A DNA stretch of 64,000 nt from a virus. The notes beneath the pieces are model-generated. The model was not told where the DNA came from. It did no database searches and saw only the letters and a program-made list of their open reading frames with translations. The DNA lies in the IMG/VR virus record IMGVR_UViG_3300013233_000436, positions 1-64,000 of that record; one strand, given 5' to 3'. A program made the translations under genes and the position numbers. Position 1 is the stretch's first letter, and each line of letters begins with the position of its first letter. Below, piece after piece: positions 28,339-61,492 of this stretch.

Positions 28339-28415
28339 TAGGAAAAGTTACTTGTGGACGGCATTCTTGCGGCACACAACGAATTTTTTCAAAAAAAACA
28401 TGAAAGGTGGGACTG

Positions 28416-43420: not shown

Positions 43421-43708
43421 ATGTCTGAAAAAGATGATAATTTTGAACCGGCTGATCTTCCAGAAGATGAAGATGAAAAACAAGAGCAGGCGAAAAAAGG
43501 AAGGGCGGCAAAAGCCTTTACAGATATTGCCTCTGCCAACAACTTAAAAATGGACAGTACGCAATACATTGGCTACTCACTCGCAAAAGTGGTATCCATT
43601 GCATCTACTGCAACGGATTTTGCCGACTTTCAGGCAAAGCTTGCTCCATACACGACAATGGCGGATGATTTTATCGCAGCAGTAGAAGCGGTTGAGGCTC
43701 CAGTTTAA
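43421..43708 (+). CDS. small acidic protein after the fibre
   Basis: A 95-residue protein, acidic in the first 20 residues (EKDDNFEPADLPEDEDEK), then helical. AAAAGG precedes the ATG. The place after the fibre suggests a fibre assembly helper; no family is recognised. Its stop lies within the next promoter-like element. Confidence 0.55.
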   Translation: MSEKDDNFEPADLPEDEDEKQEQAKKGRAAKAFTDIASANNLKMDSTQYIGYSLAKVVSIASTATDFADFQAKLAPYTTMADDFIAAVEAVEAPV

Positions 43709-43720
43709 AGAAAAATGTAA
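43705..43720 (+). promoter_or_regulatory. candidate late promoter element before the polyvalent block
   Basis: TTAAAGAAAAATGTAA, two differences from TCAAATAAAAATGTAA. It lies 69 bases before the first DarA-like gene and starts a 14 kb operon. Confidence 0.5.
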
Positions 43721-43789
43721 GTTCATTCCTCCATATTTCACGGCAAACTCCTGTAGAATCATATCAAATTTCTATTGGAGGCTATGGCC

Positions 43790-44395
43790 GTGAGTCGTTC
43801 TACCTATCTGTCATTCGACTACGAAAAATTCAACGAATCAGGCTTAAAAAAAGTCATAGCTGAGTTTAAAAAACACGATGTTTACGTTACCGGCGTGGTT
43901 GCAACCAACAAGCCCAAGCGAAAGCAGGGTGTTCAGACCAAAAAGGCCGAATTGTTCTTTAAGGACGGTCAAAAACTAACGCTCCAAGTGACCGCTCAAG
44001 GCGCTATCTTTCAGGTCGCGGTTAACGGTCGAGTTATCCCCATTCGATCCATCAACAACCTCAAGAAAGCCGTCAAAGAGGTGTCAGAGAAGATCCTCAA
44101 AAACAGCCCCGCATTCCAGAAAGCCCAAGCGCGAAAAATGGCCAAAGCCATCACCGAGCCGGTAGTGGAAAAAAAGAAGGTGGTCAACCTTGCGAGTAAA
44201 ATCAAAGCCCTTGAATCTGAAATCACATCATTTGAAGAGACGGCCTCTGACTTGCAGCAGCAGCGCGACAAACTGACCGAAGAATCGCAAACGGTCGAAG
44301 CGTCGAGAGACGACATTGAAAGCAAGCTGCTGATTGAAGAAGATCGAAACAATCAGCTCAAAGCCGAACTGAAACAGCTCAAGGAAAACGCATAA
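43790..44395 (+). CDS. DarA-like N-terminal protein with coiled coil
   Basis: A 201-residue protein starting at GTG 43790 (GGAGG eight bases upstream; ATG 43784 is too close to it). Residues about 45-110 (KKAELFFKDGQKLTLQVTAQ.. FQVAVNGRVIPIRSINNLKK) resemble the DarA N-terminal domain of phage defence-against-restriction proteins. The last 65 residues are a coiled coil. It probably enters the head with the following proteins. Assignment is by pattern and context. Confidence 0.55.
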   Translation: MSRSTYLSFDYEKFNESGLKKVIAEFKKHDVYVTGVVATNKPKRKQGVQTKKAELFFKDGQKLTLQVTAQGAIFQVAVNGRVIPIRSINNLKKAVKEVSEKILKNSPAFQKAQARKMAKAITEPVVEKKKVVNLASKIKALESEITSFEETASDLQQQRDKLTEESQTVEASRDDIESKLLIEEDRNNQLKAELKQLKENA

Positions 44396-47190
44396 TGAAT
44401 AAAACCATAATCTCCCTCAATCTTGACCTGTTGCCCAAGGGCTTCACAGATTCCGAGTTGAACAGCATTTACTATGATCTGTCCGCTACATCATCTGACC
44501 AAGACGATCTATTAGAGGCTCCCAGTTTTGCGGTTCTTGATGCTGCCATTAACACCGGCACAGAGATGATTCTTGACAGTGTTGAGGCTAAATACAGGAC
44601 ACTCCCAAGGGTTCTAAGGTTTTTTAATCACAAGCTTTCTAAGCAATTGGTCACTCAAAGCAAAGGCCCACTTAATTCCAATGGCCCTGTTGAGATCGGA
44701 GACCCAAAGAAAAGCGCAGGCACAGCCATCGTTACGGCGCGATTCCCTGTCAGTGATGGCCAATACATTACCGCAATGTTTCATGCCCCTGATATGGACC
44801 CCCAAAAGATCAATCCAGACGATACCCTGATTGCCTTTCGTTGGCTTCTGAATGGGCGTGACATTACCCATGTTGTCACCCCTGCATCTAAGGGCGGTAC
44901 AATTCAGGATATAAGCCTTGATACTGTCACAAAGCGACTCGCTCAATTGGCTGAAAAAAATACAATAAAATTCACTGCAAACAGAAAACGTGCAGAGGAG
45001 CAAAAGGCCAAACTCGAAGAACTTGCCGCAAAATCAGAGCAGAATGCCGGTATCGTTTCAGACTTGAACGAGGAAGTTATCTCACTTAATGAGACAATCG
45101 ACTCAACAAACAGAAAGGTGACGAAAAAGAGCAAGGCTCTGGAAGATTTGACCTCTGAAAATGACGCTTTGCAGTCTGAAATTGATAACTGGAAAGAGAA
45201 GGTTGCGGCTAAAGCAAAAGCGGCCACATCAAATAGGCCGCCAATGCCATCATCAAGTAATGGTGCAATCAGCTCTGACGATGCCAATGCCGCCGATCTT
45301 GTTAGGGTGAAGCTGGAAGAGCGCATTGAGCGACAAAAGAACATGAAGGCTGCAAACAAGATCATAAAATCCAAAAAAGACGTGAACAGTCGCCTCGCCT
45401 CCGAACTTGGTCTTTCTGGATCTGAAATTGAAGATCTGGTTAATCCCAGGCACACCGCAACCCCTGGATACCAATCATTTACGCTATCCAACAACAATGC
45501 AGAGATCAGGCGGCTTAGAAAGCGCATGGAGGCGCTGGAAAAATTAAGCGCAGAAGAGGATCGTGAGTTTGATTTTGATGGAGGCACAGTTGAGGTTGAT
45601 ACCGGAGACAATCGGATCAAGATTTATTACACAGTCAAGCCTGATGCAGATGCAAGGAAAGAGCTTAAGCGCAATGGCTTTAAATGGAGTCCAACGAACG
45701 GCGCATGGCAGAGGCAAATAACCCCAGCAGCAAAATATTCAACAAACCTAATCACTGGTGTTGATGTTGACGATGAAAGCCAAGGTGCTGGCGCTGGCCC
45801 CGGTGTTGACGTTGATTCTGCTGCTGATGCTGAAAGCCAAAACACCAACCAAGTAGACCCAATTGCCGCCGTTGATGAAAAGCATAAGTTCAATGGCGCA
45901 ACCGATGATTTCAAATCATGGGTTTTTGAGTCAATTGATAAGCCTGACTACAGCCCATTTTTATCAGCAGTGACGCTCGATGAAGCCGCCAAGAAAAACG
46001 GCCTTGAAATTTCAGGCTGGGATTATCCTGGAGTTACTGATGGGAATATCGCCACGATAAAAAACAATGGCTCAAGTGTTGGCTACATTGATATTGGCGA
46101 CGATGGAAAGTCGATGGTGTTTAATACCGATGGCAGCAGAGCGATGAGTGACATCTATTACACAGAGGATCTTGGTGATCTTGCTGTTTTTGTTGAGGCT
46201 TTGGCGAAAACAGCCAACCAACCAGCCGTTGACCCGACTCAAGGCGTTGAGCAGCCACCGCTTATTGGATCAGAAAAACAAATTGCGTGGGCTGAAAAAA
46301 TCAGAGCGAAAATAACCCCCATACTGAGACAGGCCGCATTGGTGAAATTGGAGCCACCAAAACAAAAAGAAGCCCCTACTGGCAGGCGGCGAAGGGTGAG
46401 AGGCGCTCAAGCAGCATGGGATGATAAATCAATCGTCGAAGCCTTGGAAGCCATAAAAATGGCAATCAATGCGGATCAGGCAGGATTCTGGATTGACAGC
46501 CGCGACGCACACAAGAAAATAGCCGACCTCGATTACAAAGGCGTGACTAAAGAAATCGGTCTTGCTCTCGAAGGGTATTACGAAAATGATGCTCTGAGCT
46601 GGAACAAGAAAGCACGAAGGGCTGGAGCAGAGATGCTAAAACAAGGTGAAGCCTTGTCAGACCAAAGCGAATATGCCGATGATCTGCCTCCCAGCAAAAG
46701 AAAGCAAATTGTGTTAGAGCATCTGAAAAAGCTTTCGGAGATAACAAATAAAACCGAGCCGATGGATGCTTTGAGTAAAATCAACAACCTCTTGGGTTCT
46801 TTTGGCAATGATGACAACCTTTCTGGTCGAGAGGTGGTTGGACTACTGTCCAGCAATTACAAAAGCAAAGAGCCGTCAACCCAACACCCTAAAAAAATGG
46901 TTCAGTTGGCGCTCATTGACATCAAAGACCAGATGGAAAAAGCCCTCGATAAAATGGATGGTGGGTCGCCCGACAATCAGGCGGAAAAAAGTGGTGATAG
47001 CGACATCCAACAAAAAATAGCAGCCCTAAAGGATATGCCAGCAGAACAGTATGAGCAGGAAATGACCGCGCTTATTTCAGAGCTTGAGGCAAATGGTCGG
47101 CTTGCTGAATTTGAGGGTGAGTTGGTAAAAATCGACAAGTCGCGTGATGCAGACTTGATTGCCTTGGCCAACAAAACATTGGAGGGCTAA
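44395..47190 (+). CDS. large polyvalent-type protein with coiled coil
   Basis: A 931-residue protein whose start overlaps the previous stop (TAATG). Residues 1-190 resemble the beginning of DarA-type proteins (RFPVSDGQYITAMFHAPDMD.. FRWLLNGRDITHVV). A long coiled coil (about 190-270) follows. GDNRIKIYYTVKPDADARKE and NGFKWSPTNGAWQR (about 400-440) are a domain often seen beside DarB-like proteins. The C-terminal half is helical. No catalytic site is seen. Motifs VLDAA and ILDSV occur near the start. Confidence 0.6.
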   Translation: MNKTIISLNLDLLPKGFTDSELNSIYYDLSATSSDQDDLLEAPSFAVLDAAINTGTEMILDSVEAKYRTLPRVLRFFNHKLSKQLVTQSKGPLNSNGPVEIGDPKKSAGTAIVTARFPVSDGQYITAMFHAPDMDPQKINPDDTLIAFRWLLNGRDITHVVTPASKGGTIQDISLDTVTKRLAQLAEKNTIKFTANRKRAEEQKAKLEELAAKSEQNAGIVSDLNEEVISLNETIDSTNRKVTKKSKALEDLTSENDALQSEIDNWKEKVAAKAKAATSNRPPMPSSSNGAISSDDANAADLVRVKLEERIERQKNMKAANKIIKSKKDVNSRLASELGLSGSEIEDLVNPRHTATPGYQSFTLSNNNAEIRRLRKRMEALEKLSAEEDREFDFDGGTVEVDTGDNRIKIYYTVKPDADARKELKRNGFKWSPTNGAWQRQITPAAKYSTNLITGVDVDDESQGAGAGPGVDVDSAADAESQNTNQVDPIAAVDEKHKFNGATDDFKSWVFESIDKPDYSPFLSAVTLDEAAKKNGLEISGWDYPGVTDGNIATIKNNGSSVGYIDIGDDGKSMVFNTDGSRAMSDIYYTEDLGDLAVFVEALAKTANQPAVDPTQGVEQPPLIGSEKQIAWAEKIRAKITPILRQAALVKLEPPKQKEAPTGRRRRVRGAQAAWDDKSIVEALEAIKMAINADQAGFWIDSRDAHKKIADLDYKGVTKEIGLALEGYYENDALSWNKKARRAGAEMLKQGEALSDQSEYADDLPPSKRKQIVLEHLKKLSEITNKTEPMDALSKINNLLGSFGNDDNLSGREVVGLLSSNYKSKEPSTQHPKKMVQLALIDIKDQMEKALDKMDGGSPDNQAEKSGDSDIQQKIAALKDMPAEQYEQEMTALISELEANGRLAEFEGELVKIDKSRDADLIALANKTLEG

Positions 47191-47192
47191 AC

Positions 47193-50100
47193 GTGAAAGC
47201 AATCCTTGACGGCATGATGTTGACTGAAAGACGCGCCATAAAAGAGGTGATTCGCTCAAATATTGCAAAGCTTATGGGTGATTCAGATCAGGGTGAGGTG
47301 TCCGCCCTACTTTCTGGCAGCAAGGGCGGCAATGGGCTGGATGCCAAAGCCCTGCAAAACAGGGATAGATCAAGGGCAAGCTACCTCTCCCAGATGAAAA
47401 AGATTGCTGATAACCCCGACTATGACCGAGTGAGTACCAGCAAAACACCTGACACAGGTGCGCCGATGGTTTTTGTTCGCGGAGTTGTCATACCAAAAAC
47501 GCAAACGGGAAAAAAAGAAACCATAACGATGGCGGACGGCAAGGGCGGAACTGTAAAGATTCCAGCCATTTACGCCGTCATTGAAGCCAAAAAGATCATT
47601 GCAAGCCACACCTCAAGCGGCGACACAGTGAAGGAGTATGGCGGGAAAACCGGCATTATGGCGCTTAACAATGGCCGAAGTGCTGCACTAAAAAAAGCCT
47701 ACTCACAAGGCACTGCAAGCGGCTACAGGGACGCTTTGCTTGAAAACACCCAAGAGCATGGGGTTAGCCTAAAAGCCATTGAGGGGCTAAAAGAGCCTGT
47801 TTTGGTGCGCGTGTTTTCAGAGAGTTCCCTCGATGGCGTAAAAGATGCCGGTGCAGCGTCGAATGTTTCGGCGGGCGCGTCACTGTCATCTACAGAGCAA
47901 GCAGAATCGGATTCAAAGAAAATCAACAATGAAACGCTCTCAAAATACGCAGGCGGTGACATTAACGCAGCCCAAAACAGAGAGTTTGTTTCATCGTTCA
48001 TCGACTCTTTGGGCGGGATTGATGCAAACGGCGATATGTTAACAGCCGAAGGGTTTGTTTCTGCCAGTGGCATCAACCGGATTGAGGCCGCAATGGTATC
48101 AAAAGCGTTTGGTGACAGTGCAACATTGGCTGATCTATCAGAAAGCCCCGACAGTGATCTAAAAAGCCTTGGCAATGCCCTAAAGGATATTTCTGGACGT
48201 TGGGCTGTTATGGTCGATATGGCCAAAAGTGGCGCTATATCACGCTCAATGGATGTGACAAAGCAGCTAAACGAAGCGGTGGCGATTGTCCGAAAATCAA
48301 GACAGACAAACACCAAGGTTTCAGACCTTGTAGCCCAAGATGATATTTTTTCTGGATCAACAGATCCGGTTGCAAAATCGCTAATCAACCTAATGTACCG
48401 CGACGGTGGATCAGGCCGAATTCGAAGTGCCGCCAACATTCAAAAGGCACTACACGCCTTCATAGATCAGGCTATGGCCACAACAGATGGCGCTGATATG
48501 TTTGGCTATGAGGCCGACCCCAAGGAGTTGATGGAGCAACAAAAAGCCGCTCTCGAAGCCGAAGAAGTCACACCGCAAACATCCCTATTTGATTCCATTG
48601 CTGGACTGTTTAACTCATGGTCAGAGGCACTAAACAAGGCTGAATTTATCAATATGATTTTTGACTCCACGATCAACAAGGCCGCAAAACAAGTGAACAC
48701 CAACCCGACAGAGGGGCAAATTGAGGCTGGAAACTACGCCAAAGGCAAGGTTTCTATTCAAGGTTTGCGTGTGGTGATCGAGAATCCAAAAGGCTCCACT
48801 CGATCAGGCGTGAACAAAGACGGGAAACGCTGGGAGTCGAAAATGAAGGCTCATTACGGCTACTTTTCCAGCACCGAGGGCAACGATGGCGACGAAGTGG
48901 ACGTGTTCCTTGGTGATCTTGCCGAATCAGCAAGCCCTAAAATATTTGTGGTTAATCAGGTTGATGAAAAAGGCAAGTTTGACGAACACAAGGTGATGTT
49001 CGGATACAAAGACCTTGCAGCGGCAAAAGCCGGATACCTAGAAAATTATGAGGCCGGATGGCGTGGCCTTGGCTCAATCAAGGAGATTGCTTTGGATAAA
49101 TTCAAAGAGTGGGTTCACTCAACCGGAACAAAACAAATTCTTGACTCTGCCAGTGGCGAAATGGGTATTGTTGAGCGCATGAGAATCAAGGGTTTGATCC
49201 GTTCGGGAATAGCTGCATTGTCGGACGACAGTATCGGCATTGCTGAACGCCTGAAAGTCAAAGCAAGCCTAAGAGCGAATATTGCCCTACTTGGTGGCAG
49301 ACCAATAAGCGCCGACCCTTACGAGGCGTACAAGGCCAATATTTCAGCAGCAGAAATGAGGCTGAAAGCTGCATCGAGCGCAATGCACAAATTCCCAAAA
49401 CTTGCGAACGGCCTAACTCCAGACGACATAAAGCGCACAACGGAGTTTAGGGAGAAAAAATTAGAAAAGGATCTTGCGTTTGAAGCTGTAAGGAAGATAA
49501 ATATCGCCACCCCCAATGAACTCAAGAAAAGGGCGACAGAGGAGCGGAGAGAGGCGAAAATTGCCAAGCTAAACAGCGAAAAGCCGCTAATCAACATGGA
49601 AAACCTGCCAAACATAGGTGACGACTACAACAAGCCCGAAAACAAAAAACTCGACGCGAAAGAGATTGCCAAAAAGCTACGGAAGCGTTTTAGGGATGCC
49701 ATCAAAAGCGGCGACCTCCCTAAGGGTGTGAATTTCAGCATCAAAATAAGTCGGTATTCAGGTGGTCAGAGCATTAACCTGAGAATCAAGAAAATACCCA
49801 ATTCAATGAAGCTCCTTAATGATGAATACGTTCTCTGGCAAGATACCAAGGTCGATCAACCCCCCATCGTTCCAGAGCGATTCACCAAAGAAACCGAAAA
49901 CCTTATTGAGTTTTTCAAGAGTCACATTCAGTCGTTTAATTTCGATAAAAGCGGCCCAATGACCGACTACTACAATGTTAATTTCTACTCTGATGTTAGC
50001 GTTGAATATGGCCTTGTGCGGGAAAAAACGGCTGAACAGTTGGCGGCGCTTAAGGGTGAGGGCAGCGTACCAATAAGCGAACCCCTGTACGGAAAAGGCG

Positions 50101-50762
50101 TTGACAGCAGTCAAGCCGCAAGTCTGGCACTGAAAACCCTCGACGACCTGAGCGGGTTCATGCCAAAGCATCAAATGCAGATCGTTCGAGAGTCGTTGCA
50201 AGGAGGCGGGCTAGATTTTGTTGAAGTCGTTAACCGGCTGAAAAAAATAATCTCTACGATGCCAAAACTTAATGAGAACGGTGATATGGGGGATGATGCA
50301 GTAGCGCACCTGCATTACTTCTACTCAAGTGGCGATTGGTGGATAACGGAAAGGGAGGATGGCAAGGATCAAAACACCGCCTTTGGCATAGCCTCAATGA
50401 ATGGAATGCCTTTAGAGCTTGGTTATATCGACATTGTAAATAAGCTGGATGATCCAAGAATTGAACTCGATTTTCATTTTAAGCCACAAAGAATCGGAGA
50501 CATAAAAGACCCTATTGCGAGAGAGGCGGCCACATCGCCAGACCCACAAGACCAGCCCAAAACGGAAGAGGAAGAGGCTGTTGCCACCCTTGAATCCATC
50601 GTAAACGGTGATTGGGATGAAAGGGATATGGAGGACATAGAAACAGCACTGTTTGGGGCTGCTGAAAAACTCGAATCCCTTGGGCTTGAAGAGGCGCACA
50701 GCGATCTGCTTGGAAACGCCGCCGTTAAATATGAATCAATCGACCGCGCAAGAAACGGGTAA
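47193..50762 (+). CDS. polyvalent protein: ParB/DdrB-like and pyrophosphatase-like domains
   Basis: An 1189-residue multidomain protein; GTG start, GGAGGG upstream. Residues about 50-215 (LQNRDRSRASYLSQMKKIAD, MALNNGRSAALKKAYSQG, RVFSES) form a ParB/DdrB-like nuclease-type domain. Residues about 505-640 (LRVVIENPKGSTRSG, MKAHYGYFSSTEGNDGDEVD, FLGD, KVMFGY) form the inorganic pyrophosphatase-like domain of polyvalent proteins. A helical repeat (ER..IK..IR..IA.L) occurs at the N-terminus and twice near 655-710. ILDSA lies at about 648-652. The protein is probably injected with the DNA to counter host defences; the individual activities are inferred from family knowledge. Confidence 0.72.
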   Translation: MKAILDGMMLTERRAIKEVIRSNIAKLMGDSDQGEVSALLSGSKGGNGLDAKALQNRDRSRASYLSQMKKIADNPDYDRVSTSKTPDTGAPMVFVRGVVIPKTQTGKKETITMADGKGGTVKIPAIYAVIEAKKIIASHTSSGDTVKEYGGKTGIMALNNGRSAALKKAYSQGTASGYRDALLENTQEHGVSLKAIEGLKEPVLVRVFSESSLDGVKDAGAASNVSAGASLSSTEQAESDSKKINNETLSKYAGGDINAAQNREFVSSFIDSLGGIDANGDMLTAEGFVSASGINRIEAAMVSKAFGDSATLADLSESPDSDLKSLGNALKDISGRWAVMVDMAKSGAISRSMDVTKQLNEAVAIVRKSRQTNTKVSDLVAQDDIFSGSTDPVAKSLINLMYRDGGSGRIRSAANIQKALHAFIDQAMATTDGADMFGYEADPKELMEQQKAALEAEEVTPQTSLFDSIAGLFNSWSEALNKAEFINMIFDSTINKAAKQVNTNPTEGQIEAGNYAKGKVSIQGLRVVIENPKGSTRSGVNKDGKRWESKMKAHYGYFSSTEGNDGDEVDVFLGDLAESASPKIFVVNQVDEKGKFDEHKVMFGYKDLAAAKAGYLENYEAGWRGLGSIKEIALDKFKEWVHSTGTKQILDSASGEMGIVERMRIKGLIRSGIAALSDDSIGIAERLKVKASLRANIALLGGRPISADPYEAYKANISAAEMRLKAASSAMHKFPKLANGLTPDDIKRTTEFREKKLEKDLAFEAVRKINIATPNELKKRATEERREAKIAKLNSEKPLINMENLPNIGDDYNKPENKKLDAKEIAKKLRKRFRDAIKSGDLPKGVNFSIKISRYSGGQSINLRIKKIPNSMKLLNDEYVLWQDTKVDQPPIVPERFTKETENLIEFFKSHIQSFNFDKSGPMTDYYNVNFYSDVSVEYGLVREKTAEQLAALKGEGSVPISEPLYGKGVDSSQAASLALKTLDDLSGFMPKHQMQIVRESLQGGGLDFVEVVNRLKKIISTMPKLNENGDMGDDAVAHLHYFYSSGDWWITEREDGKDQNTAFGIASMNGMPLELGYIDIVNKLDDPRIELDFHFKPQRIGDIKDPIAREAATSPDPQDQPKTEEEEAVATLESIVNGDWDERDMEDIETALFGAAEKLESLGLEEAHSDLLGNAAVKYESIDRARNG

Positions 50763-50771
50763 GGAATTAAT

Positions 50772-53700
50772 ATGGCAAACAGTATATTTGACTCTGCTTT
50801 GAGCGGTATTGAAAAAATCAAGCTTGTGCGGGAACTTTCAGCAATAAGAAAAAATCTGCACGGCGACTTGTCCGGCATGGCAAAGATAAAGCTGGCAAAG
50901 AGGATAAAATCCATTCGTCTTGAAATAGGCGTGAAGCCTGCCAGTGTTGTGCAGAAAACCAATGAACCAGCCGCCGATGCGTTCGATTTTGACCCAAACA
51001 TAAAGGTCTCAAAGCGCAAAAAGAACAACAAAGCAGCCTTTGATCTGCTGCAAAAAATCGTATCAGGTGAGATTGAAAAATCAACATTAACAATGGATCA
51101 GAAAAAGATCCTTGCCGGATACTCTGGCACAGGTGGCGGTTTAACCGGTGAAGACGGAAAAAGTGGCAGCCCTTACGAGTATTACACGCCCAAACCTCTT
51201 GCAGATGGCGTTTGGGGTCTGCTTGGTGATATGGGGTTCTCAGGCGGAAAGGTCTTAGACCCGTCTGCTGGCACTGGCATATTTGGCGCTACAGCTCCAC
51301 CTAATGCGGTGGTTGATGCCGTTGAATTGGATGAAACCTCTGGCAAAATTAACGACATTCTAAACGGTGATCGTGGAAAAGTGACTGTTTCAGCGTTTGA
51401 AGAGGTGGCTGCAAGCACTCCAGATGGGATCTACGACTCAATCGTTACCAATGTGCCGTTTGGCGACAATTCAGTGCGCGGCACACACGCAAAGAAAGAC
51501 CCAAAGTATCAGAAAGAGTCCTTGGATGGGTACTTTATCTTGCGGTCTCTTGAAAAACTGAAAGCCGGTGGCCTTGCCGCATTCATATCCTCAACTGGCT
51601 TTGTGTCCGGCAAGAAATATGAAAAACTGCGCGTAAAATCCTCACTTATTGCTGAATTTATGGGGGCTTACAGGCTGCCAAACAGTGTGTTTCTCAATAC
51701 CGGAGCCGATGTTACCACCGACATTATCATCTTCAAAAAGCACTCCAAGGAAGCCCAAGAAGAGATTGAGGGGCGGCAACAGAACGCCGTTGATTCACTC
51801 ATTCAGGCCAATGTGTTGTGGCAACCCTTTGTTTCGGGGAAATACTTCAAGGAAGATGGGAAAAAATACCTGATTGGCGAAACAAAGCAAAAACAAAACC
51901 GCTTTGGTGGTATGTCTGACTTTGTTGATTCCGAGAAAAGCGTCTCTGACATTGCCAAGATTTTGAAAAAGTTCCCAGGGAGCCGAATTGATTGGGCTTC
52001 TCTGAACGCCGAAGAGGCCGAAGTCATTCAATACCATGAGGGTGACACCCTGTTTGTTCGTGGCGAACAGATGGTTATGAAGGATGGCAAGTTCAAGAAA
52101 GCCGATGTTGGCGAATCTGACAAGATGATGGACAAGATCCATGCCTCAATCAAAGACCCATGCGAGAGCTTGCGGTACAGCTACGAAGAGCTTTCAAGCT
52201 TCCATAGCCATTACCAGAGCCGTGGGCTTTATCAGGAAATCCCTCAATGGCTGAATAACGCCATCGAAGAGGTCGAGGCCGGTAACGTAAGCGCCGTTAA
52301 CTTTGACGACATGATGACCGTTATTGCGGTTAACCATATTTTTAACCAGCACTCAGCATCATTGCCGTTTGATTTTCTTGGCAGTTACCCTGACCTGTCA
52401 AAACGCATCCCTAAAGCGATTTTCTCAGGCAACCGCTACAAAAACCCAAAAATCAGCGCATCCTACAAAGTCACCTCTGCTTTTTATGATCGAAAAAGCA
52501 AAGTGTACTCAGGATTGTGGCGCGGGGAACCAGAGGCGGAGGTAAAGAACGATTTAAGCAGCCTACAAAAATACGAGCGCCTACGCTACTCAATGGCAGA
52601 CAGTGATGGCTTTGTCCCAATAGAGTCATTCCAGCATCTTGTGGGCGAAGATCCAATGGAAAAAGACCGTTGGTGCATATCGAGCGACGGCAAAGGTGTG
52701 ATGCACAAAGATGATTACTATTTTGGCAGTTACGCTGAATTTTTGGCAAAGCATGGCGGTGTGCCGCAAAAAAACCTATCCGAAGATCAGCGAAGAAAGA
52801 TCATGGCTCAAGTGGACGCAGCCAATGAAAAGCTGATCAGGGTTAACCACAAAGAAATTTCGTTCAACATGAAATCCCCTTACGTTGATGTTGGCCGCAA
52901 AGCGGAGTTTTTGAAGAAATACGTTGACGATGGTTTTTTTGTTGAGCGTGACGATTCAGGTAAAGAGGTTATCGCCTACAAAGAATCTAAGGCCAAAAAA
53001 GGAAAATACGAGTCATTGAGTGATGAAGAGTTTGCGGAACAAAAGCGCAACATTAAGCGGCTGCATCAATACCTGACAAAAGGCACTATCACCACTCAAA
53101 CATCACTCAAAGATAAAAAAGCCAACCCAAAACAGGAAAAAGCGCGTGTCGAGCGCCTTAAACGCAGCATAAACGCTGCAAACCAACAATTTGATAGTTG
53201 GGTTAGGGCAAACAGCGCCATTCAAGGAGAGATAGAGAAGAGGTTTAACAACCCCGACAAACTGTTCTTCCCAGAGGTTGATGATTCTGCACCGCTCAAT
53301 ATCGGCGGCATTAATCCAAAATTCAACCCAAGAGGCCATCAAAATTCAGCAATCCGCCGGTACACACGGAGAATGACCGGCATTCTTGGATACGATGTTG
53401 GCCTTGGCAAAACAGCGTCCGCCTTGCTTACGATCAAGCACATTCACAACATCGGAATAAAAAAGAAAACCATTTTCGTTGTCCCAAACGCCACTATGTC
53501 CAACTGGAGAAAAGAGGTTAAAGGGATTTTCCTTGAAGACTCAGATTGCCTGTTTGTTGGACTGAATGTAAAAACAAACGAAGAGGGGGAAGAGATTGGG
53601 TCAAGCATCAAATCAAGCGATTACCAACGAGATTTAATGAAGGTTTTGGAAGGCAAGCACTCAAAAATCTTTATGACTCTCACTGCTTTTGAGGGAATAC

Positions 53701-56700
53701 CCCTGAAAGACGCGACAAAAGAGGCTTACATATCTCATGTGACCCAAAACGATGAAGCCTTTGATTCATCCAAAGAGAAGAACAAAACAAAGGCAATCAA
53801 GAAACAGGGCAAGTCTGCCAGCCTTGTGAATGAATCCAAATCAAACGGGTTCCCTTATCTTGAGGATATGAAGGTTGACTCCATCGTAATTGATGAAGCC
53901 CATGTGTTCAAAAACTCGAAACAAATTATCTCATTCAAGGGTGGCGCTGGATTGTCTATCGCCGCCCCATCCGGTCGCGGTAAAGACGCTCAAGTTAAGT
54001 GCTGGCACATTCGCAGCAAAAACAAGCTGGGAGACGGTGTGCTGCCATTGACGGCCACACCGATCACCAACAGCCCACTAGAAATGTACTCCATGCTTTC
54101 TCTTGCGGTTGGCGAAGAAGAGCTGAATGCGCGTCTTGGCGGCATTCGTGGAGCCGATGATTTTATGGAAGCCTTCACCGATGTTTCAGAGCGTGAGCGA
54201 ACCAATATAATCGGAGAAACAACGCTGTCCCGCGTTTTTGAGGGACTGAAAAACACCGATATGCTGCAAAAAGTGCTGCACGGAACGGCCAACATTAAAG
54301 GTCGTGAGCAGGCTGATATTGAGATGCCAGACCAAGAAAACGTAACCGTCGAGATTGCCCTTGATAAGGGTCAGAAAGACGGCCTCATGGGGCTGAAGCA
54401 GATATATGGGATAGCAAAACGTGTGGAGTCAAAAGGAAGCTACACGGAAGAAGAATACCGCATCGTAAACGATTATTCAGACAAAACCGGCGAAGACTTT
54501 AAGCTTTTATCTCACCCATTCAATCTAATTGAAAAGATGAATAATCTGATTTTGGATGAAGATTTGGCGCATAAAAGCACGGTTTATCGGTTTGATGATC
54601 GGGCTGTTGCGGAGTCAGTTGTGGCCGCATTTAACAAGATCGGGATTAAAGAGCTAAGGGAGCGACCAACTCCAGCACAAAGAAGCGATGCCGCAATAGA
54701 GTCGGTTTTAAAAAGCACTGGCGGCGAAGAGAAGGCGTATATTAAAACTTACATCCAAGCCTACATTGAGGGCGACAGAATCATCCTTGATAGCACGGAC
54801 TTTCAGATCCAGAATCGCTTCCTAAAGATTGCCGAAAAGAAAAAACTGGATATGGATGTTTCCGTCTCACCAAAAATAGCCGCTATGCTGGAAAACTTCT
54901 CCAAGGAGTTGGCTGCACCAAAAGCAGAGGGAGGAAAGTGCAAGCAGATCATATTCTGCGACTCTCTCGGAATGCACAACAAAATAAAGATGATTTTGCA
55001 GAAAAAGGCGGGGATACCGTCAAGCAAAATAATCATAGTCAATGGCGCATCTGTCACCGATCCATCCGACATGCAGGACATTCAGGATGGGTTTAACTCA
55101 GAGGGTGAGGACAATAAATACAGTGTGGTGATTGCCAATGAAAAGGCCGAAGTCGGGATCAATCTTCAAGTGGGCTGCCAAGCAATCCACCACTTAACGA
55201 TAAAATGGACTCCAGATTCCTTGCAGCAACGAAACGGACGCGCCGTTAGACAGCTCAACTACGTTAAAAACGTCCGTGTGTACAGCTACGATGCAGAAGG
55301 GACATTCGACGAATACAAGCGTGAAATGGTCGATAAAAAAGCCGATTGGATCGGTGAGTTAATGAGCGGCAAAAGCGGCGGCAAGGTGGCCGTATCCGGC
55401 TCTATGTCCAAGGAGGATGGCGACATACTGATAAGCTCAATGGGCAGCAAGGAGGCCGTCAGAAAGGCGCGTGAGGCTATGGCAGCAAAAGAGGTTGAAG
55501 AGAAGAAAGAGGCCAAACGCGCCTTGGTCGCTTCAAACTTGGATGATATTTTGGTGCAGCAAGAGACGGTTAAAAAGTACCCCGAAGCGGAGGATTACAT
55601 TAAAGAGCAGATTGGCCTTGCTGTTGACGTTGCAAATCAGTTGACGCGAACAAAAAATAGAGCTGAAAAAATCAGCAAATCAAAAACCATTGACAGAAAA
55701 AAGCTCAATGCCGCACGAAAAAATTCCAGCGCCTTTCAGTCTCAATACGACAAACTGGAAGAGCTGATTGACTCCTCATGCAATATTTACAGCCAAAGCA
55801 AGACAAAAAAGACCCTTGCCGATATTTTGAATTATGCGCTGTATGCAAACACATCGGGAGTCCTGAACAAAGAGAAGGTTTTGGAGTCGCTTGCTTACTC
55901 CAAGTTTTATGTAAACGAAGACTCCACACTCGCAATTGATTGGGATATTGAGTTATCGACCGCCAAGGGCGTGATAAAAGAGGCGACCGAAAAGGCAATC
56001 TCAACCGCCACTGAATCGGGTATTGATGCGGATCGAGTGGAGGCTGTTATCTCTGGAAAGGCGATAACCCACGGCGGGAAAATCGTTTCTGTTGGCGATT
56101 TTGTGGAAGAGGACGGCGTTGTGTTCGTGGCGCAAGATCCAAATAAAAACAGCTTTTTCTCTGTTTCAATGGATGGGGAAACCTCATACGCACCCGAATC
56201 AATCCTATTGACCGGCGAAATAATCAACAAAGAAAGCCCCAAGTATGCCGAAACAGTTAAGCGGGTAGCTGCAATAGACAAGGCTGTAATGGACAAAATT
56301 GGCGGAATTAAAGCCGAGGTATATCGCGGCGATATTCACCAAGAAAGCATGTACCACCAAGAAAACACCGACGTTCTTGCCTTTTTCCCAGAGGAAGAGG
56401 TTCTTTTGGTTGTAGAAGAAGATGATTTGGATGGCCGCATAAGTCTCGCGTCTGGTAAACCTCTCATAAGAGATAAGCCGGTAGGCGGGATTATGTTGGC
56501 GCTGTACGAGAAACAGAATGGCGCTGTAACTCGACTAAAGAGCGGAGATTATGCCATCAAGTCTTCTCAAATAACTCCAGCCAGACCAAAAGAGGATATT
56601 TTACAATACGTTATTGAAGAGGCCATAATTGCGAACCACAAAATAGAGCAAGCCGATATTGATGCTCTTCGTGAGTCTGGCGTTGGGTACAGTGGGTCTG

Positions 56701-57290
56701 GCGGGGTTTATGTTCACAAGATTTTTGAGAAAGTGATCCGAGAAATAACATCCAAAGCCGGTAAAACCGATTCAGACGACTTAAGAGACCTCTATTCTGA
56801 CGATGAAGGTCTGGACGCATTCAGGGAAAAATCCCACAATTTCATCCAAGGGATTTACGGCGATTACCTCGACTTTTCAATCATCGAGGACAAGTACGCA
56901 GAGGTCGCGTATAACGCTTTTTTCAGTGGGTACGGTAGCGACCACATAGATTCAGCATTCTATTCAGCAGAGGAAGATTTCAAGGATAAGTCAAACCCTG
57001 AACCAGAAGAGCCTGAAACAGAGACCGGTGAGGTGGTTGCAGCCAAGCCTAAAGATTGGGTTGCCCTTACTGGCGACTTGAAGCCGATAAGGGCGCATAT
57101 AAAATCATCCGCAAAATCAATGGATTCAAAGGCGTGGTGGTGCGGACAAAAACAGGCTGCATCAAAATACCCTAACTCACCTGAAAACTCATGGATAGTT
57201 CAGTATGATGTTTACCAGTATTTTTTGGAGCGATACCCAAGTCAGGCCGAAAAGAGAAATATAACAATCCATTACCAAGATGAGGGCTAA
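50772..57290 (+). CDS. DarB-like adenine methyltransferase/helicase fusion
   Basis: A 2172-residue protein, DarB type. After N-terminal helical repeats, the methyltransferase has YSGTGGG, EYYTPKPLADGVW, motif I VLDPSAGTG (161-169) and motif IV NVPF (227-230, for NPPF). The SNF2-like helicase has YDVGLGKTASALL (about 875), VIDEAHVF (about 1040), LTATPITNSPLEMY (about 1093) and QQRNGRAVRQ (about 1485). A 650-residue C-terminal part has no known domain. Relatives are packaged in the head and protect incoming phage DNA from restriction. AAGGA precedes the ATG. IFDSA lies at residues 5-9. Confidence 0.85.
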   Translation: MANSIFDSALSGIEKIKLVRELSAIRKNLHGDLSGMAKIKLAKRIKSIRLEIGVKPASVVQKTNEPAADAFDFDPNIKVSKRKKNNKAAFDLLQKIVSGEIEKSTLTMDQKKILAGYSGTGGGLTGEDGKSGSPYEYYTPKPLADGVWGLLGDMGFSGGKVLDPSAGTGIFGATAPPNAVVDAVELDETSGKINDILNGDRGKVTVSAFEEVAASTPDGIYDSIVTNVPFGDNSVRGTHAKKDPKYQKESLDGYFILRSLEKLKAGGLAAFISSTGFVSGKKYEKLRVKSSLIAEFMGAYRLPNSVFLNTGADVTTDIIIFKKHSKEAQEEIEGRQQNAVDSLIQANVLWQPFVSGKYFKEDGKKYLIGETKQKQNRFGGMSDFVDSEKSVSDIAKILKKFPGSRIDWASLNAEEAEVIQYHEGDTLFVRGEQMVMKDGKFKKADVGESDKMMDKIHASIKDPCESLRYSYEELSSFHSHYQSRGLYQEIPQWLNNAIEEVEAGNVSAVNFDDMMTVIAVNHIFNQHSASLPFDFLGSYPDLSKRIPKAIFSGNRYKNPKISASYKVTSAFYDRKSKVYSGLWRGEPEAEVKNDLSSLQKYERLRYSMADSDGFVPIESFQHLVGEDPMEKDRWCISSDGKGVMHKDDYYFGSYAEFLAKHGGVPQKNLSEDQRRKIMAQVDAANEKLIRVNHKEISFNMKSPYVDVGRKAEFLKKYVDDGFFVERDDSGKEVIAYKESKAKKGKYESLSDEEFAEQKRNIKRLHQYLTKGTITTQTSLKDKKANPKQEKARVERLKRSINAANQQFDSWVRANSAIQGEIEKRFNNPDKLFFPEVDDSAPLNIGGINPKFNPRGHQNSAIRRYTRRMTGILGYDVGLGKTASALLTIKHIHNIGIKKKTIFVVPNATMSNWRKEVKGIFLEDSDCLFVGLNVKTNEEGEEIGSSIKSSDYQRDLMKVLEGKHSKIFMTLTAFEGIPLKDATKEAYISHVTQNDEAFDSSKEKNKTKAIKKQGKSASLVNESKSNGFPYLEDMKVDSIVIDEAHVFKNSKQIISFKGGAGLSIAAPSGRGKDAQVKCWHIRSKNKLGDGVLPLTATPITNSPLEMYSMLSLAVGEEELNARLGGIRGADDFMEAFTDVSERERTNIIGETTLSRVFEGLKNTDMLQKVLHGTANIKGREQADIEMPDQENVTVEIALDKGQKDGLMGLKQIYGIAKRVESKGSYTEEEYRIVNDYSDKTGEDFKLLSHPFNLIEKMNNLILDEDLAHKSTVYRFDDRAVAESVVAAFNKIGIKELRERPTPAQRSDAAIESVLKSTGGEEKAYIKTYIQAYIEGDRIILDSTDFQIQNRFLKIAEKKKLDMDVSVSPKIAAMLENFSKELAAPKAEGGKCKQIIFCDSLGMHNKIKMILQKKAGIPSSKIIIVNGASVTDPSDMQDIQDGFNSEGEDNKYSVVIANEKAEVGINLQVGCQAIHHLTIKWTPDSLQQRNGRAVRQLNYVKNVRVYSYDAEGTFDEYKREMVDKKADWIGELMSGKSGGKVAVSGSMSKEDGDILISSMGSKEAVRKAREAMAAKEVEEKKEAKRALVASNLDDILVQQETVKKYPEAEDYIKEQIGLAVDVANQLTRTKNRAEKISKSKTIDRKKLNAARKNSSAFQSQYDKLEELIDSSCNIYSQSKTKKTLADILNYALYANTSGVLNKEKVLESLAYSKFYVNEDSTLAIDWDIELSTAKGVIKEATEKAISTATESGIDADRVEAVISGKAITHGGKIVSVGDFVEEDGVVFVAQDPNKNSFFSVSMDGETSYAPESILLTGEIINKESPKYAETVKRVAAIDKAVMDKIGGIKAEVYRGDIHQESMYHQENTDVLAFFPEEEVLLVVEEDDLDGRISLASGKPLIRDKPVGGIMLALYEKQNGAVTRLKSGDYAIKSSQITPARPKEDILQYVIEEAIIANHKIEQADIDALRESGVGYSGSGGVYVHKIFEKVIREITSKAGKTDSDDLRDLYSDDEGLDAFREKSHNFIQGIYGDYLDFSIIEDKYAEVAYNAFFSGYGSDHIDSAFYSAEEDFKDKSNPEPEEPETETGEVVAAKPKDWVALTGDLKPIRAHIKSSAKSMDSKAWWCGQKQAASKYPNSPENSWIVQYDVYQYFLERYPSQAEKRNITIHYQDEG

Positions 57291-57292
57291 CC

Positions 57293-57700
57293 ATGCAATA
57301 CGATCTACACCTTCCAGAGAGCTATGATTTATCACAATCCGATGCTATCGCGCAGCATTGGCGGGACTCTGGGAAAGATCCCGTGATTGAGATTGCAAAA
57401 ATACTGCTTGGGGAGGTAAAAAAACAGCAGCTTGGATACCTGAGATTTGGCGCTTACTGGTGGGCGCTAAAGTCGATTTTCATCAAGCTGGACTTGGTTG
57501 GCGATATTGGGGATTCAGACTTTCTAATTGAGGGGATTTACAAGGGGAGGCTTGATCTTGAAACGCTGATTATGGCCGACCAATTCAGCACTTGGTACGA
57601 CCAAAACCAGTTTCAAGGCGCAAGAGAGACAGAGGTCAATCTTGGCGGGGATTCGTATCAGCTTTATGACTCTGGGTTTGATCCTTTTTTTCAGGGATGA
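57293..57700 (+). CDS. hypothetical protein at the end of the polyvalent operon
   Basis: A 135-residue protein starting two bases after the DarB-like stop with GAGGG upstream. It is aromatic-rich (YLRFGAYWWALKS) and acidic. No family is recognised. Being the last gene of the operon, it may assist or be packaged with the large proteins. Confidence 0.6.
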   Translation: MQYDLHLPESYDLSQSDAIAQHWRDSGKDPVIEIAKILLGEVKKQQLGYLRFGAYWWALKSIFIKLDLVGDIGDSDFLIEGIYKGRLDLETLIMADQFSTWYDQNQFQGARETEVNLGGDSYQLYDSGFDPFFQG

Positions 57701-57783: not shown

Positions 57784-57957
57784 TCAGAATTTGTCATAAA
57801 GAGCCTGCACTACAATTTGCTCAATCAGCCTGCTTGTGCTGATCCGCTGTTTTTTTGCTTCAAGCTCCGCAACTGCGCGAACTTTTGGCAAAACTCGAAT
57901 GGTCAAAGATCCTCGAACCTGATCTTTGGGTTTTGGTTTTCTTCCTAATGTTGCCAT
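57784..57957 (-). CDS. ribbon-helix-helix-like small protein
   Basis: A 57-residue protein, MATLGRKPKPKDQVRGSLTI.., with a basic N-terminus, a beta strand (GSLTIRVLPKV) and two helices, the ribbon-helix-helix pattern of small DNA-binding regulators. The start is taken as ATG 57957, which overlaps the upstream stop (TAATG). It may regulate its own operon. Confidence 0.6.
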   Translation of the reverse strand: MATLGRKPKPKDQVRGSLTIRVLPKVRAVAELEAKKQRISTSRLIEQIVVQALYDKF

Positions 57958-58295: not shown

Positions 58296-58323
58296 CTTGA
58301 ATCTCCAGTGTTTTTAATGTGGC

Positions 58324-58584
58324 TTACTTGTCTTGTGAATAAATAAAAGAAAAGAAGTCGTTTCTCAGATTTGGGGCGTGTTCGCGCTGAAAATCGACAT
58401 CTTGTGATAAAAAATGACCCTTAAAGGCTTTGGCTGCATCATCAAAAGTTTCAAAGCACTTGCTCCGAATGTCGCCATGCACCGTGCCGAAGAAAGAAAA
58501 AGTGCCAGCGGGGTTCTTATCAAGGTGAGTCCCAAACGTGCCAACTGATAAAATTGGGCTTTTGCTGCTTTGTAAAATACCCAT
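58324..58584 (-). CDS. hypothetical protein
   Basis: An 86-residue protein, MGILQSSKSPILSVGTFGTH... ATG 58584 follows AACACTGGAGA; an earlier start at 58653 would lie within the promoter. It has Gly- and aromatic-rich beta stretches, then a charged helix. First gene of a small minus-strand operon. Function unknown. Confidence 0.6.
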   Translation of the reverse strand: MGILQSSKSPILSVGTFGTHLDKNPAGTFSFFGTVHGDIRSKCFETFDDAAKAFKGHFLSQDVDFQREHAPNLRNDFFSFIYSQDK

Positions 58585-58685: not shown

Positions 58686-58701
58686 TCAAATAAAAATGTA
58701 A
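58686..58701 (+). promoter_or_regulatory. candidate late promoter element
   Basis: TCAAATAAAAATGTAA, identical to 19957 and 41099, 57 bases before the chosen portal start (27 before an alternative ATG at 58729). Confidence 0.65.
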
Positions 58702-58758
58702 CTGCTATTCCGTTGCACTCATTTGATAATGAAAATCAAACTAATTGTGCGGGTGATC

Positions 58759-60396
58759 ATGGCAGCTAAAAAACAGAAAACGGGAGCCTTGCAACGGCTT
58801 TTCGGTTGGATCTCCAGCGAATCACCGCAAGAAGTCATCGACGATGGCGGTGGTGGGTACAGTAATCTATACGATGCCCTAACAAACAGCGGTAGCGATG
58901 ATCCAGAGGACGATGCTGATGCGCTCATAAAAGAGCTGCCAAGGAGTCGTTATGACCGCTATACGATCTACGATGAAATGGTCAAAGATCCGTCCGTAAA
59001 AACAGCCCTCTCTCTGCACGTTGCTCACGCATTGGCTCCAAGCCTTAAATCTGGTGAGGTTGTGTTTATTGAGTCACCAAACGACGAAGACAATGAGATT
59101 GTCACTGATCTACGCAACACATTTAAAGCATTGTTCAACGAGGAAGCATCGACTTGGGCGCGGTTTGCCGGTCGATACGGCTGCTACTACCTGCGACCTT
59201 ACATAAAGGCCGGTGAAGGTATTGTTCGCGTCCGCTGCGACCACTACACGCATCCCGCGCATATCAGGGAATACGAGCAAGCGGGGCGGATTATCGGCTA
59301 TGCAAGCACGAAGTATTTGCCAGCAGACAAAGGTGGCGGCCTCCCTCTGCTTGAGCCGTGGAAGATTGTCCCCGTAAAAATGCCGGGCTGGTCTCCAGAC
59401 TCAACAAAGGAACCATCACGCCAAAAAGCGGAACAGTTCTCTCTTGCCGATGAAGATTTTGAAAACGAGGAACCGGTAGAAACTCAGAACTACGGCGAAT
59501 CGCTGCTAGAAACAGCCTACACGCCGTGGACAGACCTCAATGAAGCAATCCTTGCCCTGAATGCAGCGCGTAGAGCGTCCGCCAAAAAAGACCGGTTTGT
59601 GGGATATTCAGCCAATGGCAAAAACATGGATGTTGCAGCAAAAGAGATGGGCCTGCTTGCTAAGCTGTTTAAACGTAAAAAAATAGAATCGGCACGAAGG
59701 TCTCTTAAAAAAGGGTATGTTGGCACGGTTGATACCACCATTTACCCCATGTTCGCCTCTGGTGCTGGTGGCGTGACAATCCAAACCGAAGATTCAAGTG
59801 CGGACATTAACGCCATTGAGGATGTTAATTTTCACGTTGCACGTCTTGCATCTGCTCTGGCAACCGACAAATCCATGATCGGCTTTACGGATGAACTATC
59901 CGGGGGTTTAGGTGATGGAGGCTTCTTTCGTGTGTCCGTCAATGCCGCTCGATACTCTGCCAACCTGCGAGATGCCGTGGCAACCGCAATGGAACGGCTG
60001 TGTGAAATCCACGTTGCAGCGAAGTTTCAAAAAGTGTTTCCAGAGGGTGAAAAGCCTTGGCGGATCAGATTTAACTCTCTAAGCAGTGCTTTGGAGCAGG
60101 AAGCCACCAATGCGCTGGAAACAAGCTCTAATGTTGCCTTATCGGTTCTCACCCTGCTGCAAACAGCAGACCCCGAAGGCACTGTTTTTGATGCCAAGAA
60201 AACAGCATCGTATCTAATGACCGATATGCTGGGAATGGAGGGCGACAAATTCGCGGAACTGATAAAAGACAGTCCACCTGTTGACGTGGAAGGATCAGGC
60301 GAACCCCCGATTGAAGACGATCCTGTTATGGATTCCGCCACCGAAAAACTAATGAAACAAATATTTTTAGAGGCCAGTAAAAATGAGCAAACTTAA
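58759..60396 (+). CDS. portal protein
   Basis: A 545-residue portal. LSLHVAHALAPSLKSGEVVF, FAGRYGCYYLRPYIKAGEGI and DFENEEPVETQNYGESLL lead to the long helices of a dodecameric portal ring through which DNA enters. The start is taken at ATG 58759 (MAAKKQKTG); in-frame TTG 58723 or ATG 58729 would add 10-12 residues and no start has a good ribosome binding site. The C-terminus has VMDSATEKL. It overlaps the prohead gene by 14 bases. Confidence 0.8.
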   Translation: MAAKKQKTGALQRLFGWISSESPQEVIDDGGGGYSNLYDALTNSGSDDPEDDADALIKELPRSRYDRYTIYDEMVKDPSVKTALSLHVAHALAPSLKSGEVVFIESPNDEDNEIVTDLRNTFKALFNEEASTWARFAGRYGCYYLRPYIKAGEGIVRVRCDHYTHPAHIREYEQAGRIIGYASTKYLPADKGGGLPLLEPWKIVPVKMPGWSPDSTKEPSRQKAEQFSLADEDFENEEPVETQNYGESLLETAYTPWTDLNEAILALNAARRASAKKDRFVGYSANGKNMDVAAKEMGLLAKLFKRKKIESARRSLKKGYVGTVDTTIYPMFASGAGGVTIQTEDSSADINAIEDVNFHVARLASALATDKSMIGFTDELSGGLGDGGFFRVSVNAARYSANLRDAVATAMERLCEIHVAAKFQKVFPEGEKPWRIRFNSLSSALEQEATNALETSSNVALSVLTLLQTADPEGTVFDAKKTASYLMTDMLGMEGDKFAELIKDSPPVDVEGSGEPPIEDDPVMDSATEKLMKQIFLEASKNEQT

Positions 60397-61492
60397 CCGC
60401 ATTACCGCAAAATTCAACATCTTTGACAACGGTCGAAAATACACCGGCCAAAAACGCGGCTATGTTTTAGACAATTGGAAAGCTGCAATCAACAACAAAG
60501 TTGTGCAGGAACGCATTGCTCTTGGTGAGATGGTTGGCTACGTTGGCCACGGCTACCGAAAACTAACCGGCAAGCTGATGCCCGAAGAGATGGAGGTGGC
60601 CAATATGCCCAATGGCAGCCAAATCGTGCTTGATGCCGATCCATCACACCGCTGTGTTGAGCTATCAATTGATGATGCTGGCAACGTGACGCACACCGAA
60701 GAGGTTTTTGACAACGACCAAGGCAAGCGGGTTATGGGGTTTCATAACTCAAAGTTTGGTGGATTTTCCGTTGCCGCCGCCCCTGCATCTGGAAGCAGTA
60801 GCAGCAGAACACTAATCGACATGGTTTATGGATTTGATTACGTCAATAACCCAAACTTTGCCGAAAATCGCGGCTATATTTTAGATGATGCCAGTGACGC
60901 TCCAAGCCGTGACAACGCCATTAAAGCCTTATCTGATGCCGGTATTGACAGTGCGGAGGCTGTGTTTGATGGCTGGGTTGAATCGGACGGTGCTTATTAC
61001 AAAGATGCCATCTTTGATGCCGAAGACAAATTGATTGACTCGCAAATCACCGTTGGCGAACAAGAAAAAGACATTCAGTTATTAAGCGATAAGATCGAAG
61101 AACTTGAAAAGCGGATTGAAGATCAAGCGATCTCACACGACAACGCTATTCTTGATAGTGCTTCACACTACCAGCAAGCCACCACGTCACTTGAGTCTCA
61201 ATTGAAAGCCGATCACAGTGCAGAAATTGAGAAAATGGCCGTGACTCGATCAAAGGTAATGCAGAGAATGGCGGCACAATCACCTGTCGCCATACCTGAT
61301 GCCGTCCTTGATTCACTTTCTAGTGCAGGGGATGTTGCTGGGATGAAGCCATTTCTCGATTTTCTTTCTAAAGCCGCAAAAATCGACGCATCGGATTTAC
61401 CCATTGGCAATCACACACCGCACTTTGTGGCCATTATTGCCGATGACGCTGGAGAAGATATTCAGTCCCCAGAGTTTGGTATTTTTGATTAA
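60383..61492 (+). CDS. prohead protease fused to scaffold
   Basis: A 369-residue protein. Residues 1-150 form a herpesvirus/phage prohead protease domain: GYVGHGYRKLTG (candidate His, about 54), then FGGFSVAAAPASG (candidate Ser, about 129). Residues about 200-290 are a coiled coil with EQEKDIQLLSDKIEELEKRI, as in scaffold or core proteins. The sequence has several [VI][LF]D-type motifs (AIFDAED, AILDSAS, AVLDSL) that may be self-cleavage sites. It directs head assembly and is then degraded. Convergent with the next gene by three bases. Confidence 0.75.
   Translation: MSKLNRITAKFNIFDNGRKYTGQKRGYVLDNWKAAINNKVVQERIALGEMVGYVGHGYRKLTGKLMPEEMEVANMPNGSQIVLDADPSHRCVELSIDDAGNVTHTEEVFDNDQGKRVMGFHNSKFGGFSVAAAPASGSSSSRTLIDMVYGFDYVNNPNFAENRGYILDDASDAPSRDNAIKALSDAGIDSAEAVFDGWVESDGAYYKDAIFDAEDKLIDSQITVGEQEKDIQLLSDKIEELEKRIEDQAISHDNAILDSASHYQQATTSLESQLKADHSAEIEKMAVTRSKVMQRMAAQSPVAIPDAVLDSLSSAGDVAGMKPFLDFLSKAAKIDASDLPIGNHTPHFVAIIADDAGEDIQSPEFGIFD

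Follow-up and report, generated by a model that had tools for sequence, protein, structure and literature searches.

The window analysed here, a stretch of 64,000 nucleotides of viral DNA (IMGVR_UViG_3300013233_000436, positions 1 to 64,000), carries between positions 43775 and 57700 an operon of five plus-strand genes which, by sequence comparison, are orthologues of the Dar genes of phage P1: hdf, darA, a ddrB-like gene including a pyrophosphatase (InPase) domain, darB and ulx (Table 1). We consider it very probable that these constitute a complete P1-type Dar cassette whose products are packaged in the phage head. In a wider explanation, which we judge likely as a whole, the Dar proteins would be processed by the prohead protease (Pro), DarB would enter the head directed by a short N-terminal leader and the cassette would protect the phage DNA.

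The Dar cassette and its probable packaging

Neighbouring open reading frames (ORFs) of the operon overlap by 1 nucleotide or are separated by 2-9 nucleotides and together cover 21.7% of the window, which confirms the original prediction that five adjacent genes form one operon occupying more than a fifth of it. The identities proposed for the individual genes fared unequally. The small first gene, called DarA-like, does encode a DarA_N domain (3.8e-9), but its product is Hdf. The profile of the Hdf family alignment matches the PDB chain of P1 Hdf, which is itself a member of that alignment, and an alternative hdf start lies three codons in (ATG, 43784). The true DarA is the 931-residue protein, earlier described as a coiled-coil protein (DarA_N, 5.3e-27; phrog_1926; 5.2e-29 in direct comparison with P1 DarA). 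The PDB chain of P1 DarA matches residues 6-266 (E=2e-26) and residues 278-453 match phage families without assigned function, one of them labelled primase, in profile searches; the claim that most of this protein resembles nothing recognised is thus not borne out. With the AlphaFold model of DarA, whose overall confidence is low and whose residues 280-931 are poorly modelled, Foldseek found strong PDB matches only to P1 DarA (9ukm_I, 1.1e-9; 9vz0_I, 2.5e-9). The DarA/Hdf pair with the DarA_N fold is therefore represented in the window.

As had been proposed, the third ORF combines a ddrB-ParB domain (1.2e-21) with InPase (4.8e-53); it matches P1 DdrB at 9.5e-23 in direct comparison. The assignment of the 2172-residue product as an adenine methyltransferase/helicase also holds: it is a DarB-type protein with methyltransferase and SNF2-type ATPase domains, whose methyltransferase motifs SAGTG and NVPF, Walker A motif GLGKT and DEAH box are kept in all or nearly all aligned DarBs. 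Its C-terminal region (residues about 1530-2172) is indeed unrecognised as regards solved structures, since no PDB fold was found at E<=0.001 and Foldseek gave nothing below E 0.1, but it is conserved in relatives. The small partner gene is Ulx-like.

All six P1 Dar proteins are virion head proteins by mass spectrometry (PMC9024508), and in cryo-electron microscopy (cryo-EM) the inner wall of the P1 capsid is seen to carry DarA and Hdf as 55 pairs (PMC12810830; PDB 9ukm/9vz0). Packaging of the window proteins with the phage DNA, as originally suggested, is supported because all P1 orthologues are head proteins, and also by a promoter-like element that the Dar operon has in common with the capsid, portal and tail operons. 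This element, TCAAATAAAAATGTAA, occurs six times in the window at <=3 mismatches, against 1.4 expected, and none of 100 shuffles reaches six. All copies lie on the plus strand shortly upstream of a packaging or virion operon, the operons concerned being those for packaging, baseplate, capsid, tail, Dar and portal. The copies support the reading of a late-promoter-like element, which had been noticed ahead of the block. The P1 late-promoter box (AAGTGACTT type, Lpa) was compared and does not match it.

The presence of methyltransferase and helicase domains in DarB might alternatively point to late-expressed genes for replication or DNA modification whose products stay unpackaged. This is very improbable: the P1 orthologues are all virion proteins, those of DarA and Hdf belong to the P1 capsid wall, the late element is common to the Dar and virion operons, and the Dar operon adjoins the genes for portal and Pro.

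Table 1. Positions of the cassette, its predicted processing signals and related features in the window
Feature	Position	Strand	Details
TCAAATAAAAATGTAA copies	717 (pac), 19957 (gp26), 28323 (MCP), 41099 (gp16), 43705 (hdf operon), 58686 (portal-Pro)	+	
Major capsid protein, MCP (P1 gp23 orthologue)	28407..30035	+	predicted site ILD121↓A122, aligned to P1 Edman site E120↓S121
Element before hdf operon	43705..43720	+	TTAAAGAAAAATGTAA, 2 mismatches to TCAAATAAAAATGTAA
hdf, P1 Hdf orthologue (206 aa)	43775..44395	+	phrog_1620 4.8e-47; P1 Hdf 3.7e-21
darA, P1 DarA orthologue (931 aa)	44395..47190	+	DarA_N 58-190; long helix about 175-279
Predicted Pro site ILD61↓S62 in DarA	44569..44580	+	aligned with the N-terminal loss (about 69 residues) in P1 DarA
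ddrB-like polyvalent protein (1189 aa)	47193..50762	+	ParB-like 52-207; InPase 508-641; DarA-type C-terminal helical segment 1112-1185
Predicted Pro site IFD491↓S492, ahead of InPase	48657..48668	+	
InPase domain, DdrB 508-641	48714..49115	+	PF18823 4.8e-53
Predicted Pro site ILD651↓S652, behind InPase	49137..49148	+	
Diverged tandem helix pair, DdrB 653-703	49149..49301	+	18/1000 shuffles score as high
darB, adenine methyltransferase + SNF2-type ATPase (2172 aa)	50772..57290	+	P1 DarB 2.7e-125; PHROG 11801 E=0
DarB leader MANSIFD (7 aa)	50772..50792	+	predicted cut before S8
DdrA helix-pair module fused on DarB, residues 9-54	50796..50933	+	held-out profile model
DarB C-terminal region, residues about 1530-2172	55362..57287	+	AlphaFold2 predicted local distance difference test (pLDDT) 78
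ulx, Ulx-like partner (135 aa)	57293..57700	+	phrog_1629 2.4e-12
Element before portal-Pro	58686..58701	+	found in TCAAATAAAAATGTAA search
Portal (P1 prt orthologue)	58723..60396	+	profile search and P1 protein comparison
Pro, prohead protease (P1 pro orthologue)	60383..61492	+	Asp-type; own predicted sites in C-terminal half

A predicted protease-site code with Asp and Glu forms

The P1 MCP is cut at MLE120↓S121, as mapped by Edman sequencing (arrows mark the cut, known or predicted). Sites aligned to it read ILD↓A in the window MCP, ILD↓S in Vibrio and LFD↓S, TFD↓DA, TYD↓DA or RLD↓S in others. A common site code, (I/L/F)-(L/F)-D↓(A/S/D) in the window phage and ...E↓(A/S) in P1, falls at the MCP site, at the point of N-terminal loss of P1 DarA, within Pro and DdrB, and at the DarB N-terminus. 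We think it fairly likely that this code marks cleavage sites of the prohead protease. The head-targeting link which the original prediction had named as its test would then lie in the predicted Pro sites of DarA, DdrB and DarB, which are like those of MCP and Pro.

Across the 89 ORFs of the window there are 13 matches to I(L/F)D(S/A/G/D), where shuffles give 3.4 (at most 9, in 200 shuffles); three matches are in Pro, three in DdrB, two in DarB, one each in MCP and DarA, and three elsewhere. Strict ILD(A/S), derived from the two MCPs, is found four times in the Dar proteins and Pro and once in all other ORFs (Fisher p=0.011), and looser patterns, chosen post hoc, give nine against three (p about 2e-4). 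Upstream of the operon, a 317-residue protein (42452-43405) starts MATTAEQAILD↓A, which fits the site pattern; it may be a chance match or another processed protein.

In P1, the corresponding pattern (I/L/M)(L/F)E(S/A) picks out the known MCP site, four positions in Pro, DdrB 441, the portal C-terminus and DarA E68↓A69. The last predicted cut is near residue 70, the first one modelled by cryo-EM; P1 DarA loses about 69 N-terminal residues (PMC12810830), and N-terminal sequencing of the mature protein had given no clear signal. The pattern has 13 matches across the P1 proteins, against 6.6 expected, with chance-level matches in other proteins. The match in the P1 portal (L003:17312-19021) is a predicted Pro site, ILE559↓S560.

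Pro proteins fall into two classes according to their own predicted sites. Asp-type proteins have Asp sites (9 Asp and 0 Glu in the window, 8/0 in Vibrio, 7/0 in Aeromonas and 4/0 in Burkholderia) and Glu-type proteins Glu sites (0/5 in P1 and 0/7 in Photobacterium); most enterobacteria also belong to the Glu type. Wherever the class of Pro is unambiguous (14 loci), the residue at the aligned DarA site is the one expected from it. Asp is present at both the DarA site and the DarB leader in 24 loci, while the DarB leader reads IFE↓R in three Glu-type loci (L131, L140, L141); two apparent mismatches between leader and DarA (L036, L142) are, by our reading, wrong picks of the pattern. In Pro, MCP and DarA of the window, the predicted sites have Asp and not Glu as their last residue. 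For the prohead proteases covered by PMC5694885 the residue before the cut is Glu, so that an Asp-cutting class would be new. Pro itself ends ...GIFD in the window, the same residues as a cut product, and Vibrio Pro ends GFYD; such a product-like C-terminus may reflect autocleavage or product-like inhibition.

These D- or E-type motifs could instead be inherited family features, enriched by composition or by the choice of pattern. The pattern is short and was partly picked post hoc, and background ORFs show a mild excess of the motif (1.33x). We regard this as unlikely, given that the motif is shared by the Edman-mapped site of P1 MCP and its aligned counterparts in other MCPs, and that it switches between Asp and Glu jointly in Pro, DarA and DarB.

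Predicted DarB leader and DdrA helix pair

The first 30 residues of P1 DarB were identified in 2022 as a capsid-targeting sequence, sufficient for packaging, and BLAST comparison of the Dar N-termini revealed no consensus (PMC9024508). By eye, P1 DarB and DdrB seem likely to share an N-terminal motif (ATSIETLI vs SSVSEILK), but the match is not significant (E=0.3). Window DarB starts with the predicted seven-residue leader. The site motif is present in the first 20 residues of 30 of 131 DarBs, against 2.6 expected, and of 29 of 1123 other ORFs, against 18.4.

Directly behind the leader, window DarB carries a two-helix segment resembling that at the N-terminus of DdrA-like proteins. A hidden Markov model (HMM) of this segment, built without window or P1 sequences, recognises residues 9-54 of window DarB (1.6e-12) and residues 1-46 of P1 DdrA (2e-5), and no shuffle out of 1000 reaches either score. 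This held-out model supersedes an earlier HMM made from four window repeats, with which P1 DdrA was not found. A separate DdrA ORF is absent from the window cassette and the DdrA helix pair sits on DarB, as in many relatives. The module is present in 68 distinct proteins, 44 of which are DarBs.

The chances that DarB leader and helix pair form a capsid-targeting signal seem to us about even. P1 loads Hdf and DarA, then DdrA, DdrB, DarB and Ulx (PMC12810830); because DdrA precedes DdrB and DarB in this order and the pair is fused to DarB, we suggest that the pair is a docking piece. Alternatively, the helix pair might serve DarB as an effector or for binding DNA or protein, a role that DdrA may have in P1, and packaging would then be directed by the short leader alone or by another part. 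This is a real possibility, if not a probable one: P1 DdrA is a separate virion protein with the table entry 'antagonist of EcoA endonuclease' (PMC9024508), P1 DarB lacks the module and is nonetheless packaged, and the module is internal to the protein in some relatives. Against it, the module begins within the first 60 residues of its carrier in 57 of the 68 proteins and lies directly behind a predicted protease site in 27 of the 44 DarBs, where 0.5 are expected; the P1 loading order also speaks for docking.

The DdrB-like protein

Because two predicted sites bracket its InPase domain, window DdrB may be a polyprotein cut within the head. Moraxellaceae relatives have one or more sites after InPase, and most relatives have none. 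Behind the second site, the diverged tandem helix pair (residues 653-703) is only suggestive of a relation to the DdrA module. The proposal that the window DdrB N-terminus is a single DdrA-type repeat is unsupported (598 of 1000 shuffles score as high), and a Pfam scan of the protein recognised no metallopeptidase domain.

Proposed mechanism and points against it

The Dar genes would be expressed late, together with the virion genes, and Hdf and DarA would line the prohead interior, Pro removing the first ~61 residues of DarA. DdrB and DarB would then be brought into the head, DarB by way of its leader MANSIFD, which Pro would cut off in a T4-like manner. Behind this leader, the DdrA helix pair, which P1 carries on the separate protein DdrA, would dock DarB. 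Pro would cut DdrB on both sides of the pyrophosphatase, so that the cargo arrives as separate enzymes. At infection the Dar proteins would enter with the DNA, and DarB, as adenine methyltransferase and SNF2 translocase, would shield it with DarA and Hdf against type I restriction. Head location, ejection and antirestriction are known only from P1 and are attributed to the window phage by homology; which sites are cut, the role of leader and helix pair in targeting and the polyprotein nature of DdrB we infer from sequence.

Several points weigh against this scheme. P1 DarB, the sole DarB whose targeting sequence has been mapped, has neither leader site nor module (534 of 1000 shuffles reach its score, and the proposal that a copy of the DdrA repeat makes up its targeting region was rejected), and the enterobacterial Glu-type DarBs are also without a leader. 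The site pattern was widened after the first matches had been seen, which leaves the strict pattern and the covariation as the only near-unbiased tests; several DarA-site alignments were read by eye, and the covariation counts ignore relatedness. The sites flanking InPase (491↓492 and 651↓652) are present in 4 and 5 of 61 relatives, respectively, and were rejected as a general feature. The antirestriction activity attributed to the window cassette rests on P1.

Comparison with known systems

The window shares with the P1 Dar system all orthologues except a separate DdrA, together with the late, head-linked character of the genes and their proximity to portal and Pro. P1 has darB-ulx at a separate place from the darA operon, whereas the window has one contiguous operon running towards portal and Pro. 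It also differs in the DdrA pair fused to DarB, InPase inside DdrB without a recognised metallopeptidase, the predicted Asp-type protease sites and another late promoter element. Because a separate DdrA is absent and relatives show the same fusion on DarB, we class the window cassette, on the sequence comparisons, as a P1-system variant rather than an identical system.

Vibrio P1-like phage-plasmids (L012, L014) resemble the window in gene order, Hdf (47% identical) and Asp-type Pro; they differ by a separate DdrA, InPase at the DarB N-terminus and two reverse genes before darB. Xanthomonas phage Rb1 (PQ569993) has a DarB 37% identical to that of the window, a Ulx-like neighbour and an 'internal head protein' with InPase and DarA_N, but its InPase is fused to DarA_N and its capsid protein is far more distant (23% identity). 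T4 internal proteins carry capsid-targeting propeptides of 10-20 residues removed by the head protease (PMC5694885). The predicted leader MANSIFD↓S of the window, seven residues long, would have a similar layout, a short N-terminal propeptide ending at a prohead-protease site; the comparison is one of layout. The giant phages phiKZ and SPN3US likewise have a protease with sites in its own C-terminal part, and the proteases of T4 (gp21), phiKZ and SPN3US (PMC5694885) and of P1 (Pro) are Glu-specific, whereas the window sites are predicted to end in Asp. The window proteins also resemble polyvalent proteins (PMC5512222), multi-domain late phage proteins with ParB-like, InPase, methyltransferase and SNF2 domains, to which the window case would add a link to prohead-protease processing. 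No prior description of the site code or of the leader-plus-module layout was found in the literature searched, which left most subscription journals and the main 2017 P1 paper outside it.

Genomic setting and distribution

The source of the window is, to judge from its gene content, a P1-like myovirus. Direct protein comparison identified orthologues of P1 PacB, HrdC/RdgC, gp26, 25, 7, 24, 6, 5 and MCP, and of the sheath protein, gp21, PmgG, BplB, PmgC, Tub, PmgB, PmgA, BplA, gp16, portal and Pro; portal and then Pro lie downstream of the Dar operon. The viral and bacterial collections yielded 133 unique DarB loci. Of the judgeable ones, 77 of 111 have a DarA_N protein <=6.5 kb from DarB and 89 of 119 a Ulx homologue <=500 bp from it. 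Since both neighbour DarB in most judged loci, the cassette is widespread among viral and bacterial DarB loci. Single-sequence queries with DarB and Hdf found no close relatives in viral_contigs, an alignment query being needed.

The order in the P1-like plasmid of Vibrio campbellii is hdf-darA-ddrA-ddrB-darB-ulx-portal-pro, with two reverse genes ahead of darB. In the window, two small minus-strand ORFs (57957-58653) lie between ulx and portal, and these differing positions of reverse genes suggest a possible insertion hot spot. Elsewhere the window carries a tRNA-Arg (CCT) gene (5467-5543); a 203-residue protein (9951-10562) matching only the first part of the C5-cytosine methylase profile and possibly truncated; a 1353-residue protein on the minus strand (14559-18620) with a C-terminal Gp77 fiber-tail adaptor domain, probably a tail fibre; and a 909-residue tape-measure-like protein (35768-38497) with an SLT transglycosylase domain, in a stretch of strongly biased composition (GC 54%, AT skew 0.28).

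Implications

We tentatively propose, with chances that we place slightly short of even, that P1-like phages address very large cargo to the head by a removable leader and a movable DdrA docking module, and that Pro exists in Asp- and Glu-cutting forms with which the sites in cargo, scaffold and capsid switch along; in the window phage, Pro would also free a pyrophosphatase from a cargo polyprotein. The site code, together with the recurring leader and helix pair on DarB, offers a testable answer to the lack of a consensus among Dar N-termini; the code predicts a cut of P1 DarA at E68↓A69. If these proposals are true, phage proteins that are loaded into the head and processed there would be predictable from sequence, and new tags would become available for loading proteins into P1-like heads.

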